DNA of 48,173 bases. Origin: Chloroflexota bacterium (GTDB lineage Bacteria; Chloroflexota; Limnocylindria; Limnocylindrales; Limnocylindraceae). The notes under the pieces were generated by a model. The model was not told the DNA's origin and searched no databases. It worked only from the letters and a program-made list of their open reading frames with translations. Shown in pieces: positions 39,941 to 47,466 of the stretch. Within the stretch, counting starts at the first letter, position 1. The number at the start of each line of letters is the position of its first letter. The stretch covers positions 1-48,173 of the forward strand of contig JAPLHQ010000013.1 in assembly GCA_026389555.1 (NCBI GenBank). Reading direction: 5' to 3'. Made by a program: the position numbers and the translations under genes.

Positions 39941-40969
39941 TCAGACCGCGTCCGGCCCCCGTCGCAGGCACGAGACCCGTCGGTTCCCGACAGGGTCGAG
40001 GCTGATCAGCGAGGGCGTTGTCGCCGAACAGGAGGCAACGCTCTCTCTGCATCGTGGATGGAATGTGCAGCCACTTGGCGGATTCAACGGTGACGGCACG
40101 TCGCCCTCCAGGATGATGCGGTCACGTCGTTCGCGACGGTCAGGCTCTGGGACGGCGGAGAGGAGCGCGCGCGTATACGGGTGTGACGGATCCTTAAAGA
40201 GTTCTGCCGCTGGCGCTGTCTCCACGATCTTTCCGAGGTACATCACAGCGATGCGATCACAGAGATGCTCCACCACACCAAGGTTGTGTGCGATGAAAAG
40301 ATACGAGAGACCGAGCTCCTTCTGGAGTTCTGCGAGCAGGTTCAACACCTGCGCCTGAATGGAGACATCGAGCGCTGAGACCGGCTCATCCAAGACGATC
40401 AGTGAAGGATCAAGGATGAGCGCACGAGCGATCCCCACGCGTTGGCGCTGACCACCAGAGAATTCGTGCGGGTAGCGACGCGCACTCTCTGGTCGCAGGC
40501 CGACCATGTCAAGCGTCTTTGCCACCTTCGCCTCGCGCTCTTTTGCTGAACCGATCCCGTGGATGCGCAGCCCCTCGCCGACCGCTTCGCCGATCGGCGT
40601 GCGTGGATCGAGGCTTGCGAACGGATCCTGGAAGACGATCTGCGCCTTACGGCGATATGACTTGAGCTGTGAGCCGCTCAGTTTGGTGATGTCCGTACCC
40701 CCAAAGAGAACTGAACCTCCCGTTGGCTCAATTAGCCGAAGGATGAGCCGACCAACGGTGGTCTTACCGCAACCAGACTCGCCAACAAGTCCGAGCGTCT
40801 CACCAGCACGAACCTCAAAGTCGACGCCATCAACGGCGCGCACTTGGCCAACCACACGCTGCAGCGCACCAGCGCGCACCGGGAAGGTCTTCGCAAGTCC
40901 GCGGACTTCTAGAAGCGGTGCACTACTTGGAACGGGGTTGCTGCTGACGCGCGCCTTCTCGCTCATCAC
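39941..40969 (-). CDS. Dipeptide/oligopeptide ABC transporter ATP-binding protein (DppF/OppF-like)
   Basis: [26 protein letters not shown]...[45 protein letters not shown]...GCTFHPRCR. Confidence 0.96.
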
Positions 40970-41988
40970 TTCACCCCCTTCAGCGCGAGTGCGCCGTGTG
41001 CTGGATCGTAGAGGTGGCAGCGCACGCAGCTGCCGCTTGCACCGCTATGCGCAAGGAGATCAGGGTGCTGCGAGGTGCAGGCGACGAGGCCCGTCGCTTC
41101 GCGCTGCCCACAGCGATCGCCAAAACGACAGCCGATGATGGGCTCAGTGAGTGCTGGCACCTGTCCAGGGATCACGCGGAGTTGTCCACGCCCAGTGCCA
41201 GCGCGCGGGATTGCGCCAAGGAGCCCCTGCGTGTACGGATGACGCGGGTTGTCAAAGATGGCGTCGCGGCCCTGCTCCTCCACCACTTCGCCGGCGTACA
41301 TCACGGCGACGCGATCGCAGAACTCAGAGACCACGCCAAGGTCGTGGGTGATCAGCACGATGGCGGTGCCGAGTCGCTCACGGAGATCGCGCAGCAACTC
41401 TAGGATCTGCGCCTGAATCGTCACGTCGAGTGCGGTAGTTGGCTCATCTGCAATGAGCAGCTCCGGCTCACAGGCGAGTGCCATGGCGATCATGACGCGT
41501 TGCGCCATACCACCGGAGATCTCGTGTGGGTAGGCATCGGCACGGCGACCAGGATCTGGAATGCCGACGAGTTCCAGCAGCTCAATGCCGCGCATGCGCG
41601 CCGCCTTCTCATCAAGGCCCTTATGGATGCGCAGCACCTCACCGATCTGATCAGCAAGCTTCTGCACTGGGTTGAGTGAGGAGTTCGGCTGCTGGAAGAT
41701 CATCGCGATGCGATTCCCACGAATCTTCTGCATCTCCAACTCGGTAGCGGTGAGGAGTTCCTGGCCGTCGAAGCGGACGCTCCCGCCAGTGATCTGACCC
41801 GGCGGCGTGATCAGGCGCAGGATGGAGAGCGAGGTGACGCTTTTTCCGCAGCCAGACTCGCCCACAAGTCCGAGCACCTCGCCGCGATCAACGCCGAACG
41901 TTGCGCCGTCCACCGCGCGCACCACACCGTCGCGCAGACGGAACGAGGTCTGCAGATCGCGTACCTCAAGGAGTCGATCAGCCATCAC
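40966..41988 (-). CDS. Dipeptide/oligopeptide ABC transporter ATP-binding protein (DppD/OppD-like)
   Basis: [21 protein letters not shown]...[43 protein letters not shown]...[10 protein letters not shown]. Confidence 0.96.
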
Positions 41989-41994
41989 GCCCTC

Positions 41995-42888
41995 CTATCG
42001 CTGCAGCCGTGGGTCAAGCGCGTCACGAAGACCGTCGCCGACCAGGTTAAAGGCGAGCACGGTCATGGTGATCGCAATGCCAGGGAAGACCACCACGTGC
42101 GGCGACGAGAAGAGGAGGTTGCGATCGGCGCCAATCATGGAGCCCCACTCCGCCGTTGGCGGCTGCGCGCCGAGGCCAAGGAAGCTCAACGCGGCAACGT
42201 CAAGGATGGCGCCGCCAATGCCGAGCGTTCCCTGGACGATGATCGGCGTCAGCGCGTTCGGAAGGATCTTCCGGAAGAGGATGGATGCCTCAGAGGCGCC
42301 GAGTGCGCGGCTCGCCGCAACAAACTCGCGGTCACGAAGCCCGAGCACTGAGGCGCGCATCACACGCGCATAGATTGGGATCGCAACGATGCCGATCGCG
42401 AGCTGCGTGTTGATCAGCCCCGGGCCGATCACCGTCACGATCGCAATGGCGAGGAGGAGGCTCGGGAAGGCGAGCAGCACATCCATGATGCGCATGAAGA
42501 GGTTGTCCACCCAGCCGCCAACAAATCCAGAGACGGCGCCGATCAGTGAACCGAGCACGATCGCGAAGCCGACGGTGAGGAAGCCCACCTGAAGGCTGAG
42601 GCGCGCGCCGTGAAGGACGCGCGCGAAGACATCGCGCACATTGTTATCAAGGCCGAAGATGTGCTGCGGCCCCTCGCAACCGAGAGCGTTGATGCAAGGG
42701 CCGGCGAGTCGGATCGCACCCGGCTCCTTATCAATCAGGACGTCAATCGGGCTGTAGCTGGCGAATACGTCTGCACCAAGCGCTGCGATGACCAGTACGG
42801 ACAGTAGGAGAAGCCCAACGCGTGCGGTGCGCTGCTCCAGGAATGAGCGGAGTGCGCGTCGGAACGGGGTCTGGGCCTGCGCGCTCAT
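41995..42888 (-). CDS. Dipeptide/oligopeptide ABC transporter permease (DppC/OppC-like)
   Basis: GLDNNVRDVFARVLHGARLSLQVGF...RVMRASVLGLRDREFVAASRALGASEASILFRKILPNALTPIIVQGTLGIGGAIL...FPGIAITMTVLAFNLVGDGLRDALDPR. Confidence 0.96.
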   Translation of the reverse strand: MSAQAQTPFRRALRSFLEQRTARVGLLLLSVLVIAALGADVFASYSPIDVLIDKEPGAIRLAGPCINALGCEGPQHIFGLDNNVRDVFARVLHGARLSLQVGFLTVGFAIVLGSLIGAVSGFVGGWVDNLFMRIMDVLLAFPSLLLAIAIVTVIGPGLINTQLAIGIVAIPIYARVMRASVLGLRDREFVAASRALGASEASILFRKILPNALTPIIVQGTLGIGGAILDVAALSFLGLGAQPPTAEWGSMIGADRNLLFSSPHVVVFPGIAITMTVLAFNLVGDGLRDALDPRLQR

Positions 42889-43964
42889 GAGTTGATCCGC
42901 ACCCGTGGGTCAAGGTAGGCGTAGCTGATGTCAACGATCAGGTTCACCACAACGTAGCCAACGCTCACGATCACGGTGACCCCTTGCACCACCACATAGT
43001 CACGCGCGGTGATCGCGTCGGAGATGGTACGACCGATTCCAGCAAATCCAAAGATCGTCTCCGTCAACACCGCACCAGAGAGGAGGCCGCCGAGCGAGAG
43101 GCCAACCACCGTTGCCACGGGGAGGAGTGCGTTGCGCAGCGCATGCTTTGAGACCACCTCGCGTTCAGAGAGTCCCTTCGCACGCGCGGTACGGATGTAA
43201 TCGGAGCCGAGCACGTCGAGCAGCGAGGAGCGCGTGATGCGCGCAATCACCGCCATCGGAATCGTCGCCAGGGCAACGGAGGGGAGGATGAGGTGCTTCA
43301 CCGCATCAATAAGGTTGCCAGGGTTCAGGGTCAGGATCGCATTCGGGATCGCCATGTTGGAGATGAAGTCGAGCAGGCCACGCAGCGGCCCCTGCAGCCC
43401 AGCGAGCCCCCAGGCAACCGCGATCTCCGTTGGGATGACGCCGGCGGTGTAGCGATTCGCAGGGGGGAGTGCGATCGGCGTCCCCTTTAGCACCACCGCA
43501 AAGAAGTAGGCGAGCAGGAGGCCAAGGACGAAGACAGGGATGGAGACTCCGAGGTTGGCGAAGATCATCGTGGAGACATCGGTGCGTGAGTTGCGCTTAG
43601 TGGCGGCGCGAACGCCGAGCTTAATACCGAAGAACGTAGCAATCGTGAGTGAGATCGCCGTAAGTTCAATCGTGGTTGGGAGTCGATCAACGATCAGCTG
43701 CGTGACCGGAACGCCGAAGCGAATCGAATCACCGAGGTCGCCCGTCAGCACCTGCTGCAGATACTTGAGGAACTGGACGGGTATCGGCTGATCAAAGCCG
43801 TAACGCGAGTTGAACGCGGCACATGCGACTTCAGTGGCCTTCTCACCGAGAAGTGCGCGGCACGGGTCGCCGGGGAGGAGCCGCGTGATGACAAAGACCG
43901 CCACAAGGATCCCGAAGATCACGGGGAGGCTCACCAGGAGCCGTCGCACGATGTAGGTCGTCAT
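42885..43964 (-). CDS. Dipeptide/oligopeptide ABC transporter permease (DppB/OppB-like)
   Basis: YIVRRLLVSLPVIFGILVAVFVITRLLPGDPCRALLG...ARITRSSLLDVLGSDYIRTARAKGLSEREVVSKHALRNALLPVATVVG. Confidence 0.96.
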   Translation of the reverse strand: MTTYIVRRLLVSLPVIFGILVAVFVITRLLPGDPCRALLGEKATEVACAAFNSRYGFDQPIPVQFLKYLQQVLTGDLGDSIRFGVPVTQLIVDRLPTTIELTAISLTIATFFGIKLGVRAATKRNSRTDVSTMIFANLGVSIPVFVLGLLLAYFFAVVLKGTPIALPPANRYTAGVIPTEIAVAWGLAGLQGPLRGLLDFISNMAIPNAILTLNPGNLIDAVKHLILPSVALATIPMAVIARITRSSLLDVLGSDYIRTARAKGLSEREVVSKHALRNALLPVATVVGLSLGGLLSGAVLTETIFGFAGIGRTISDAITARDYVVVQGVTVIVSVGYVVVNLIVDISYAYLDPRVRINS

Positions 43965-44036: not shown

Positions 44037-45707
44037 TCAGTTCGACGCGCAGCGCTCCTCATTGAGGAAGGGGGAAAGGGTGCCCCAATAGCGGAAGATC
44101 CCCGTTCGCCCCTTATGAAGCGGGCTTGCGCAGTCCCAGATTGCGGCAAAGCTATCCAGCACGTCGCTCGCATCAAGGGTCGCTCCATTATGGAAGCGTA
44201 CGTTCGGTCGCAAAGTGCAGGTCCAGGTCAAAAGATCCTTTGATGAATCGCAAGACTCTGCGAGGAGTGGGCGGAGCTCCGTTTCTCCAGGAATCAGCCC
44301 GTAGAGCGTCTCGTTGATCTGCGAGCAGATGCGGTATGACTCAAAGTCTCCCTCATCTGCGCAGTAGAGGCCTCCCGGCTCCACGTTCTGCAAGAAGACG
44401 AGTGAAGATCGGTCGCCTGGCTTCATTGGAGCAAACGACTCATTCCCGAGTGGCGACGCCTCAGCGTTCGCCACATCACTCCTGAAGGCGACTGCCGAGC
44501 TACTAAACGCAATGGGCACCACAATCGCCTCTGAACGGATGATCTCGTTCGCTTCGGCGTACAGCGAATCGCGCTTGGATTTATCGCCAGTGGTTGCGGC
44601 GGCCGAGACAAGCGACTGAAGCGCTTCGGGGATTACACCAAATCGTGGTCCGGACTGCGGTCCAAAGAAGTAATCCATGAAGTTTGTTGCGTCAACATAG
44701 TCTGCACCGAATCCACCAAGGAAGATTCCTGTCAGCTTGCCGGAGTCACGGTTATCCTGGAAGATCGTTGACTCCTGAAGATCAAGTGTGGCAATCACGC
44801 CGATCTGCGCGAGTTGCGCCTGCACCTCAACGGCGATATCTGTTGGGTATGGCGTGTGGCGGCGCGTGACATCACGATACGCAATGGTCGTAGAGAAGCC
44901 GTTAGGGTAGCCAGCCTCAGCTAGGAGGCGCTTCGCCTCAGCGAGATCCTGGTCGTACCAGGGTGTTCCGCCGCAAGCATTAGGGATCGCGCACGGGGTG
45001 AAGTGCGTTGCAACTTCGGATCCATCTGGATAAAAGGTATCAACGATTCTCTTGCGGTCAAGCGCCATCGCTAAAGCCTGGCGAACGCGAACGTCAGTAA
45101 ATGGTTTCATCGTGTTACTAAAGCCCATGTACATAACGCTCAAACTTGGGCGGGAGAGGACCTGGACGTTCAAGTCTGACTTCAGGATTTCCGCATCGTC
45201 TGGCGAGATGTTGTCAATGCCATCTACCGTGCCCGCCTGAAGCTGAATCAGGCGTGCAGCTGCGTCTTGCTGCCACTGAAAGATCATCGACTCCGCGAGT
45301 GCCTTATCCCCCCAGTAGTTTTCGTTCCGCGCTAAGACAATCTGGCTCTCGCGCTCCCATGCAGTGAAGGAGAATGGACCAGTACCGTTCGGCTTCAGGC
45401 TGAGCACCCCGTCCTGAGCGTGTGCTTGCAGGTAGCCAGAATCATCAATCTGAAACGGGGTGAGCGAAACCTTTTCGAGGAATGCAATGTCAGGTGCGCA
45501 GAGCTCAAACTTGACCGTGAGCTCATTAACTGAGGTGATGCGCTTCAACCCAACCTCTGGAGTGCCGCCCTCGCTCACGCTGCATTTGGCTGGACCATCT
45601 ACAGGGTAGCTTCGCGCACTAAACGGAAGAAGTTCAGCCGCCGGAGTATTGCTGCCAGTGCATCCAACCGCCAACATGCCAACAAGCACTACTGACAGCA
45701 GTCGCAC
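44037..45707 (-). CDS. Family-5 ABC transporter substrate-binding lipoprotein, circularly permuted domain order
   Basis: GTG start with upstream GGAGGAGG; lipobox MLAVGC. N-terminal part matches the mid/C-terminal SBP_bac_5 region (LTVKFELCAPDIAFLEK..PNGTGPFSFTAWERESQIVLARNENYWG..FTDVRVRQALAMALDRKRI); C-terminal part matches the canonical N-terminus (EPGGLYCADEGDFESYRICSQINETLYG..LLTWTCTLRPNVRFHNGATLDASDVLDSF). Confidence 0.9.
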   Translation of the reverse strand: MRLLSVVLVGMLAVGCTGSNTPAAELLPFSARSYPVDGPAKCSVSEGGTPEVGLKRITSVNELTVKFELCAPDIAFLEKVSLTPFQIDDSGYLQAHAQDGVLSLKPNGTGPFSFTAWERESQIVLARNENYWGDKALAESMIFQWQQDAAARLIQLQAGTVDGIDNISPDDAEILKSDLNVQVLSRPSLSVMYMGFSNTMKPFTDVRVRQALAMALDRKRIVDTFYPDGSEVATHFTPCAIPNACGGTPWYDQDLAEAKRLLAEAGYPNGFSTTIAYRDVTRRHTPYPTDIAVEVQAQLAQIGVIATLDLQESTIFQDNRDSGKLTGIFLGGFGADYVDATNFMDYFFGPQSGPRFGVIPEALQSLVSAAATTGDKSKRDSLYAEANEIIRSEAIVVPIAFSSSAVAFRSDVANAEASPLGNESFAPMKPGDRSSLVFLQNVEPGGLYCADEGDFESYRICSQINETLYGLIPGETELRPLLAESCDSSKDLLTWTCTLRPNVRFHNGATLDASDVLDSFAAIWDCASPLHKGRTGIFRYWGTLSPFLNEERCASN

Positions 45708-45730
45708 CTGAGCCTCCTCCACATAAATAA

Positions 45731-45762
45731 ACGGGCGGACCGCCAATCGGCGATCCGCCCGT
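45731..45762 (-). terminator. Probable intrinsic terminator between the two SBP genes
   Basis: ACGGGCGGA..TCCGCCCGT (9-bp perfect arms) with nested CGCC/GGCG; minus-strand transcript continues TTTATTTATG. Confidence 0.65.
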
Positions 45763-45789
45763 AAGTTACCCCAGGTAACTAGATTGCGC

Positions 45790-47466
45790 TCATTCTGCTG
45801 GCTTGGTGCAGGCGTCGGTATTCAAGAACCCCGAGATGAGGCTGAAATACTCGAACACGCTGGTGCGGCCCTTGTGCAGTGGGTTTGCGCAGTCCCAGAC
45901 CGAAGCAAACGTATCAACCACGTCAGTGGCATCAAACGTTGCGCCGTTGTGGAACTTCACGCCCGTGCGCAGGGTGCACGTCCAGGTGAGCAGATCCTCA
46001 GAGGCCGTGCAGGCTGTGGCGAGGAGTGGCTTGGTTGTCGCCTCTCCCGTCACGAAGCCGAAGAGGCCTTCGCCGATCTGACCGCAGACGCGGAGTGACT
46101 CGCCGTCCGTCTCGTCCATACAGTAAAGCCCACCAGGCTCACCGTTCTGGATCCACACGAAGGTGTCGTCCCCGTCTGAGCTCATCACTGAAAGCTCCTC
46201 GTTGCCGAGTGGCGACGAGTGAGCGCCGGTGATGCTCGCCTTGAATGCAAGAGCTGAACCGCCGTGAGCCACTGGGATCATCGGAATGTTCGTCTTCAGT
46301 GCATTGTTCGCCTCGGCGTAAAGCGCAGCACGTGTTGCTGCATCAGCCGTTGCGCTCGCCGCCATCAGCGGCTCATAGACCGCTGCGATCGGGGCGCCGA
46401 ACTGTGGCGACGAGTTCTTTCCGAAGTGATAGTCCAGGAAGTTCGTTGGGTCTGGATAGTCCGCACCCCAACCGAGGAGATGCAGGCCCTGCAGGGTCCC
46501 AGCGCTTGCAGCGTCGAGATATGCCGTTGACTCCACCACAGCAATGGTGACGTCAATGCCGATCTCCTTGAGCTGTGCCTGGATGTCCGTGGCGACCGTG
46601 GCTGGGACCGGGAGGTACCCGCGCACAACGTCACGATATGAAAGGGTCGTCTTGAAGCCGCTTGGGTAACCGGCATCCTTCAGCAACTGCTTCGCTGCTG
46701 CGATGTCCTGGGTGTACCACTCTTCGCCTTCGCAGGCGAACTCAATGGTGCACGGCGTGAAGTGGCTCGCCACCTCTGAACCGCCCGGATAGAAGTTGTC
46801 GATGATGCGCTGACGATCAAGCGCCAGGGCAACCGCCTTACGAACCTCAAGCTTCTCGAATGGATCGCCGGCGATGCCGGAGTTCATTCCGAGGTACATG
46901 GTGTTCAGTGCAGCGCGCGGGATGACCTGCAGCGTTGTGTCTGCAGTTGCACCAGCGATGTCCGTTGGCGCAAGGTTGTCAATGCCGTCAGCTGTGCCGG
47001 CTCGAAGGGCGAGCAGTCGTGCCGCGCCCTCTGACTGCCACTGGAAGACTGCGGTGCCCGAAGTGGCGAGCTGTCCCCAATAGTCAGCATTGCGCTCGAG
47101 GACGATCTGGGAGCCCTTCTCCCACGCCTTGAGCTTGTATGGCCCGGTGCCGTTTGGCACCGTGACGATGCTCCCGTCCGCAGTAGCGGCGGTGAGGTAG
47201 CCGGAGTCGTTGATCTGGTAGTTGGTCAGTGCCAACTTCTGGATGAACGCCACGTCTGGTGCGCAGAGCTCAAAGACGACCGTCGAGGCGTCTGTTGAGG
47301 TGATGCGCTTGAAACCGTAGCCGTCGGCGCAGTCTGCCGCGCCAGCCTCTGGATATGCCTTCGCCTTGAAGGCGATGGTGTCAGCAGCGGAGCTCGATGA
47401 GCCACCACACGCTGCAGCAACCATCAGGAGAGCGGCGCCGATCGCGCCGATCCGTAGGTTCTTCAT
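45790..47466 (-). CDS. Family-5 ABC transporter substrate-binding lipoprotein, circularly permuted domain order
   Basis: Lipoprotein signal MKNLRIGAIGAALLMVAAACGGSSSS; same inverted order: STVVFELCAPDVAFIQK..NGTGPYKLKAWEKGSQIVLERNADYWG..LEVRKAVALALDRQRI..GWGADYPDPTNFLDYHFG.. then EPGGLYCMDETDGESLRVCGQIGEGLFGF..LLTWTCTLRTGVKFHNGATFDATDVVDTFASVWDC. Confidence 0.92.
   Translation of the reverse strand: MKNLRIGAIGAALLMVAAACGGSSSSAADTIAFKAKAYPEAGAADCADGYGFKRITSTDASTVVFELCAPDVAFIQKLALTNYQINDSGYLTAATADGSIVTVPNGTGPYKLKAWEKGSQIVLERNADYWGQLATSGTAVFQWQSEGAARLLALRAGTADGIDNLAPTDIAGATADTTLQVIPRAALNTMYLGMNSGIAGDPFEKLEVRKAVALALDRQRIIDNFYPGGSEVASHFTPCTIEFACEGEEWYTQDIAAAKQLLKDAGYPSGFKTTLSYRDVVRGYLPVPATVATDIQAQLKEIGIDVTIAVVESTAYLDAASAGTLQGLHLLGWGADYPDPTNFLDYHFGKNSSPQFGAPIAAVYEPLMAASATADAATRAALYAEANNALKTNIPMIPVAHGGSALAFKASITGAHSSPLGNEELSVMSSDGDDTFVWIQNGEPGGLYCMDETDGESLRVCGQIGEGLFGFVTGEATTKPLLATACTASEDLLTWTCTLRTGVKFHNGATFDATDVVDTFASVWDCANPLHKGRTSVFEYFSLISGFLNTDACTKPAE

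Follow-up and report, generated by a model that had tools for sequence, protein, structure and literature searches.

Two tandem genes for family-5 peptide-binding lipoproteins raise the question of whether a DppA-type SBP can have its segments in rotated order and still serve a dipeptide importer. The genes lie in a window of 48,173 nucleotides (the whole stretch of DNA that was analysed) from a freshwater Chloroflexota MAG (127 contigs, genome of 1.16 Mb). Its closest named relative is Candidatus Limnocylindrus sp. ZSMar2m-chloro-G89, with 98% identity in the gene A body.

Organization of the locus

Six consecutive genes are found on the minus strand, in the order SBP gene A, SBP gene B, dppB, dppC, dppD and dppF. 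Gene A (45790..47466) starts with ATG and encodes a lipoprotein of 558 aa, identified as a circularly permuted DppA-type SBP from its ORF, Pfam, phmmer and AlphaFold2. Its signal peptide (47407..47466) ends in the lipobox VAAA-C20. Gene B (44037..45707) encodes a second such protein of 556 aa (ORF, Pfam, six-frame search). Its start was placed at the GTG at 45707, behind GGAGGAGG, instead of the TTG at 45746 that was the first start given by the ORF finder. The permease DppB (42885..43964) was assigned from its ORF and alignment; the permease DppC (41995..42888) and the ATPases DppD (40966..41988) and DppF (39941..40969) were assigned from ORFs and operon comparison. A hairpin scan revealed a strong terminator-like hairpin of 14 pairs, 11 GC, between genes A and B (45731..45762, minus strand). 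Its effect would be to make the product of gene A more abundant than any other; it is one site, and the region's total of such sites is not above that of shuffles.

Two homologous blocks in exchanged order

The initial annotation claimed that both ORFs are circularly permuted, the segment that is N-terminal in canonical proteins lying at the C-terminus, and expected SBP_bac_5 to match in two parts of swapped HMM order. This was seen in both genes. PF00496 (SBP_bac_5) matches each window protein as two stretches with 250-262 bits (cut-off 32.4). The gene A body (residues 51-352) corresponds to HMM positions 64-365 (5.5e-74), and the gene B body likewise. Downstream of the bodies, a six-frame search placed HMM 2-52 at 45883-46035 in gene A and HMM 1-49 at 44133-44279 in gene B, which is the swapped order. 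All 73 permuted proteins in our alignment match PF00496.

The search with phmmer against PDB 5f1q gave the same picture: residues 54-434 of the query matched DppA 154-538, and residues 419-543 matched DppA 14-145 (precursor numbering). In mature numbering, residues ~54-425 align with DppA 127-501 and the C-terminal ~127 aa with DppA 2-118. A profile of the moved segment built from 45 permuted proteins matched only family-5 SBPs, with 1dpp_A residues 2-118 at 3.2e-17. Neither window protein shows the colinear N-to-C order of canonical family-5 SBPs, whether by Pfam, phmmer, six-frame search or segment profile. On these data the gene A body comprises residues 51-425 (46192..47316, minus strand; E. 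coli DppA mature ~127-501, from the canonical interior to the C-terminus; Pfam, phmmer, rotation alignment), and its moved segment residues 430-545 (45832..46179, minus strand; DppA mature 2-118; phmmer, six-frame search, segment profile). In gene B the corresponding body lies at 44433..45551 (Pfam) and the moved, ancestral N-terminal segment at 44049..44405 (six-frame search), both on the minus strand. The segment limits given at the outset, 45790-46175 and 44037-44412, were right to within a few residues.

Rotation of the sequence gave a further comparison. When gene A was rotated near residue 430-435, the best cut against both reference proteins, its global score against E. coli DppA rose from 356 to 420, and that against Paracoccus DppA from 405 to 519 (shuffled, ~10). 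Rotation also lifted the scores of gene B and of the Bellilinea homologue against canonical SBPs, and produced no meaningful gain when applied to canonical control SBPs. Taken together, the swapped HMM blocks, phmmer, the segment profile and the rotation test agree that both ORFs are circularly permuted.

Both ancestral blocks are present in one copy each, exchanged, in a single ORF. The matches of the blocks to DppA 2-118 and 127-501 place the breakpoint at DppA mature 118-127, and the new termini presumably lie in subdomain Ib of lobe I. At the other end, alignment with DppA shows that the ancestral C-terminus and N-terminus meet in gene A at SVMSSDGDDTF (46159..46191, minus strand). The join reads ...PLGNEELSVM-SSDGD-DTFVWIQ..., where ~3 residues link the last strand of the ancestral chain to its first.

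Predicted fold

AlphaFold2 was run with an alignment of the 73 permuted proteins. The whole gene A chain was predicted as one compact fold (pLDDT 93, pTM 0.90), a confidence that is not independent of the family because the permuted proteins' own alignment was supplied. The moved segment modelled alone reached only pLDDT 65 and pTM 0.58, and this model weakly retrieved family-5 SBPs in Foldseek. Since the segment folds poorly alone and its weak matches are again to family 5, it appears to be part of a single fold and no autonomous domain. The top Foldseek hits of the whole model were the DppA structures 5f1q and 1dpp. It was superposed on 1dpp over 388 columns at 2.0 A, with a query-based TM of 0.65. 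Only the colinear part is included, which is the outcome expected if the remainder is in swapped order.

The difference between the whole chain (pTM 0.90) and the segment alone (pLDDT 65) argues against two separate half-domains, the structure that the initial annotation had set against its own proposal, and against a degenerate SBP that binds no peptide and serves, for example, as a spacer or an adhesin. Such degeneration would suit the deep subgroup L037-L039, which is very divergent and on a long branch, but it is opposed by the invariant Arg/Asp clamp (73/73), the dpp operon and the strong purifying selection described below. We regard this reading as very improbable.

A domain-swapped oligomer, in which a body is completed by the moved segment from a different chain and the functional unit is a dimer, deserves slightly more credit and is still improbable. 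The tandem genes A and B could pair in this way, and pneumococcal AliC, also of cluster C, was crystallised as a domain-swapped dimer as far as the 8qlh entry indicates. However, the strands connected by the ~3-residue junction lie side by side in the canonical fold, an arrangement that favours closure within a single chain; the model of the monomer has high confidence along its whole length; and in most relatives each locus has only one copy of the gene.

Distribution and origin of the permuted proteins

A scan of 84,980 species returned 305 relatives of the junction query, and the 80 loci that were fetched were all permuted. Within a set of 60 relatives, matches spanning the junction were found in two families. 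Nearly all fetched permuted genes stand directly upstream of dppB-dppC, often followed by dppD-dppF, with one permuted copy per locus in most relatives. Within Chloroflexota, a strong match was found in 55 of 400 sampled genomes (29 of 224 genera). Carriers include the cultured Bellilinea caldifistulae and Thermanaerothrix daxensis as well as Oscillochloris, and some carrier genomes are single contigs. The window itself comes from a MAG in 127 contigs, where a chimera of assembly or gene calling would be a natural suspicion; the same order in many independent assemblies, in the two cultured species and in single-contig genomes refutes it, and with well over 100 independent permuted loci its probability is negligible.

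The permuted form also occurs in Actinomycetota. Mislabelled MAGs were considered as the source of these records and rejected: WhiB genes were found in four carriers labelled Actinomycetota or other non-Chloroflexota, and in none of five Chloroflexota carriers. The non-Chloroflexota carriers form two pairs in the tree, which suggests transfer. The carrier lineages also have family-5 SBPs of canonical order.

For a tree, the permuted proteins were re-ordered and combined with canonical ones; it requires a single change of order (SH-aLRT 100), with the permuted clade nested among DppA-type proteins; the trees are quick ones without bootstrap, with some long branches and partial genome sampling. 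The homologue search proposed in the initial annotation thus mapped a clade that is widespread in Chloroflexota. The same genome carries a second permuted pair on contig C79 (L014:5426-8838), making four paralogues in total. Because genes A and B and the C79 pair group together, the duplications are recent and the permutation is old. The initial view that the permutation predates the duplication of A and B was right but too modest, as the permuted form extends over much of Chloroflexota with a single origin in the tree. We infer that the permutation arose once and then spread by vertical inheritance and horizontal transfer. The stretch read around the C79 pair contains no permease genes, and the pair may use the DppBCDF of the window. 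Its flanking ORFs have a 'PLALIHPLGPLFRHLPLSLRRHL'-like N-terminus in common.

The single event in a DppA ancestor would probably have consisted of tandem duplication, in-frame fusion and trimming at both ends. No duplication-fusion intermediate of the permuted form was found. Nine phylum matches flagged with a 'stop inside' were considered as split-gene intermediates and rejected, the stop being the normal end of the permuted ORF. Among canonical genes, L224:755-3049 (plus strand) is an ORF of 765 aa in which a DppA 9-244 half is fused in frame to a near-whole 50-535; part of the gene may have undergone tandem duplication and fusion, or the ORF is an artefact of the MAG. The permuted genes at L171:3615-5461 and L163:4066-5795 appear split over two overlapping frames, probably by frameshift errors of assembly.

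Plasmid records were also rejected as permuted, the junction query giving only weak matches of 26-41% identity. In H1 and H5, the two annotated plasmid cases with a match across the junction, this match begins right at the start of the SBP gene, and another ~1.1-1.2 kb of coding sequence follows; these genes therefore have the canonical order, and the alignment of the signal peptide is fortuitous. The Paracoccus SBP also has the canonical order. Five loci (L037, L038, L039, L168 and L169) encode very divergent permuted SBPs on long branches, perhaps with a different ligand, and L168 has no recognised dppBC in the fetched stretch.

Dipeptide pocket and selection

E. coli DppA binds the dipeptide through R383, which holds the carboxyl group, and D436, which holds the amino group; charge reversal of these residues abolishes binding, and the scoop loop of DppB (E41, R42) enters the DppA cleft (PMC12136057). 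Alignment places R282 of gene A (46621..46623, minus strand) at R383 and D336 (46459..46461, minus strand) at D436, and the equivalents of both are invariant in the 73 permuted proteins. The DppB of the window retains the scoop-loop Glu (GEKATEVAC, 43821-43847), and among 82 permuted operons the 69 parsable DppBs retain this Glu with Lys, Arg or His directly after it. The dN/dS of gene A against its orthologues is 0.05-0.26 in the body and the moved segment alike, which indicates purifying selection. From the invariant Arg/Asp pair and the kept scoop loop, ordinary peptide capture and delivery would be expected. A Cys pair was also observed in the DppB scoop motif in 71 of 82 permuted operons and in 2 of 13 canonical ones.

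Other ligands occur among the relatives of DppA, HbpA and GbpA. A permuted SBP whose main substrate is not di- or tripeptides but heme, glutathione or the like would be a matter of the ligand alone and does not conflict with the permutation. It is in keeping with HbpA and the glutathione-binding GbpA being among the closest solved relatives besides DppA, and with four paralogues in the genome, two of them without permease in the stretch read. The pair for the dipeptide ends is nevertheless invariant, although relatives with other ligands may keep it too, and we hold this possibility to be real but rather unlikely.

The preferred reading, to which we assign a probability of about 0.9, is that the products of genes A and B are dipeptide-binding proteins that work in an ABC importer, of DppA type and cluster C, with a natural circular permutation and a re-sited tether. 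The ancestral C- and N-termini are joined through ~3 residues, and new termini open in the lobe I loop at DppA mature 118-127. In the proposed mechanism a di- or tripeptide would be caught by the usual Venus-flytrap motion and passed to DppBC, and the lipid tether would leave from the 118-127 loop instead of the ancestral N-terminal strand.

The permease partner

A comparison of DppB from 82 permuted and 13 canonical operons revealed an enlarged periplasmic loop that accompanies permuted SBPs only; in the window it comprises residues 177-213 (43326..43436, minus strand). The periplasmic stretch measures 70-76 residues in 81 of the 82 permuted operons, against 37-57 in 13/13 canonical ones, so that the loop is ~20 residues larger in 81/82 and 0/13, respectively. 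The exception, L063, is probably a misread motif in a record with frameshifts. The enlarged loop may be adapted to the permuted SBP, and it lends indirect support to the initial suggestion that the permutation could change how the SBP is presented to the permease. The DppBs from permuted operons fall into a single group (support 89), and since the loop change tracks one inheritance event it could reflect shared ancestry, not adaptation.

The new N-terminus

Both window genes carry a lipobox pattern, as do 71 of 84 permuted relatives, and lipidation is predicted. The pattern gave no match in the other 13 relatives, of which some have truncated ORFs and others a plain signal peptide, so a lipid anchor is common but not universal. 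The lipobox reported initially therefore stands for both window genes and does not extend to the whole family. The permuted proteins begin with the signal peptide, in most cases the lipobox, a linker of variable length and Cys46, and then enter the interior strand. In the alignment of permuted proteins Cys46 and Cys68 are conserved beside the new N-terminus; a putative pairing between them could staple it.

Several lineages have an additional whole SBP domain, from one of three unrelated families, between the signal peptide and the permuted domain. It is SBP_bac_3 in L089, L097, L101 and L166 and Peripla_BP_6 in L090, L122 and L225, the last two cut by contig ends; in L063, with frameshifts, a Bmp domain lies just upstream of the permuted SBP. 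Tree positions suggest at least three separate fusion events, and these forms are possible dual receptors. Five long canonical ORFs taken as controls, a small sample, contained no second SBP domain of another family; one of the five is the fused partial duplicate L224.

Comparison with known systems

E. coli DppA and H. parasuis HbpA-GbpA are cluster C proteins of canonical order, and both blocks of the window proteins are homologous to them over the full length. The Arg + Asp dipeptide clamp and the dppBCDF partner genes are shared with DppA. The window proteins differ in carrying the equivalent of mature 2-118 C-terminally, with termini at the 118-127 loop, and the permuted form adds the conserved Cys46/Cys68 near the new N-terminus and the larger DppB loop.

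The only naturally permuted SBP that our literature search found is TpMglB-2 (Tp0684) of Treponema pallidum, a lipid-tethered protein classed as 'Type Ic / Cluster Bc' with N-lobe elements at the C-terminus, for which the authors suggest a link with tethering (PMC4990184). TpMglB-2 has the cluster B (type I) sugar-binding fold; identity in its moved part is 13%, and the protein has an insertion as well as a fourth hinge cross-over. In contrast, the window proteins belong to cluster C, sequence comparison readily matches their moved part with DppA, and their join is near-seamless. They do not fall into cluster B: SBP_bac_5 is the sole Pfam match and the top PDB hits are cluster C SBPs. For cluster C or family 5 the same search found no earlier report of a permuted SBP, an absence that is no proof.

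Significance of the permutation

Natural circular permutations are rare and are often noticed only once a structure has been solved, TpMglB-2 being one case. The permutation of DppA is evident from the sequence alone and is present in many genomes, and it offers a natural template for permuted biosensor scaffolds from family-5 SBPs. With one old event, a well-studied fold and the partner permease in the same operon, the question of neutral versus functional permutation becomes testable, by comparing permuted and canonical DppA, each with its own DppBC, for tether position, docking and folding. Tentatively, and with the odds against it, we suggest that the re-sited termini free the N-terminus for a tether and, in several lineages, for a whole second SBP (SBP_bac_3, Peripla_BP_6 or Bmp) at the lobe I loop, and that the DppB loop docks the permuted form. 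If this is true, the permutation would be an adaptive change in the way the SBP is presented to its permease, and the fused proteins would act as receptors of dual specificity.
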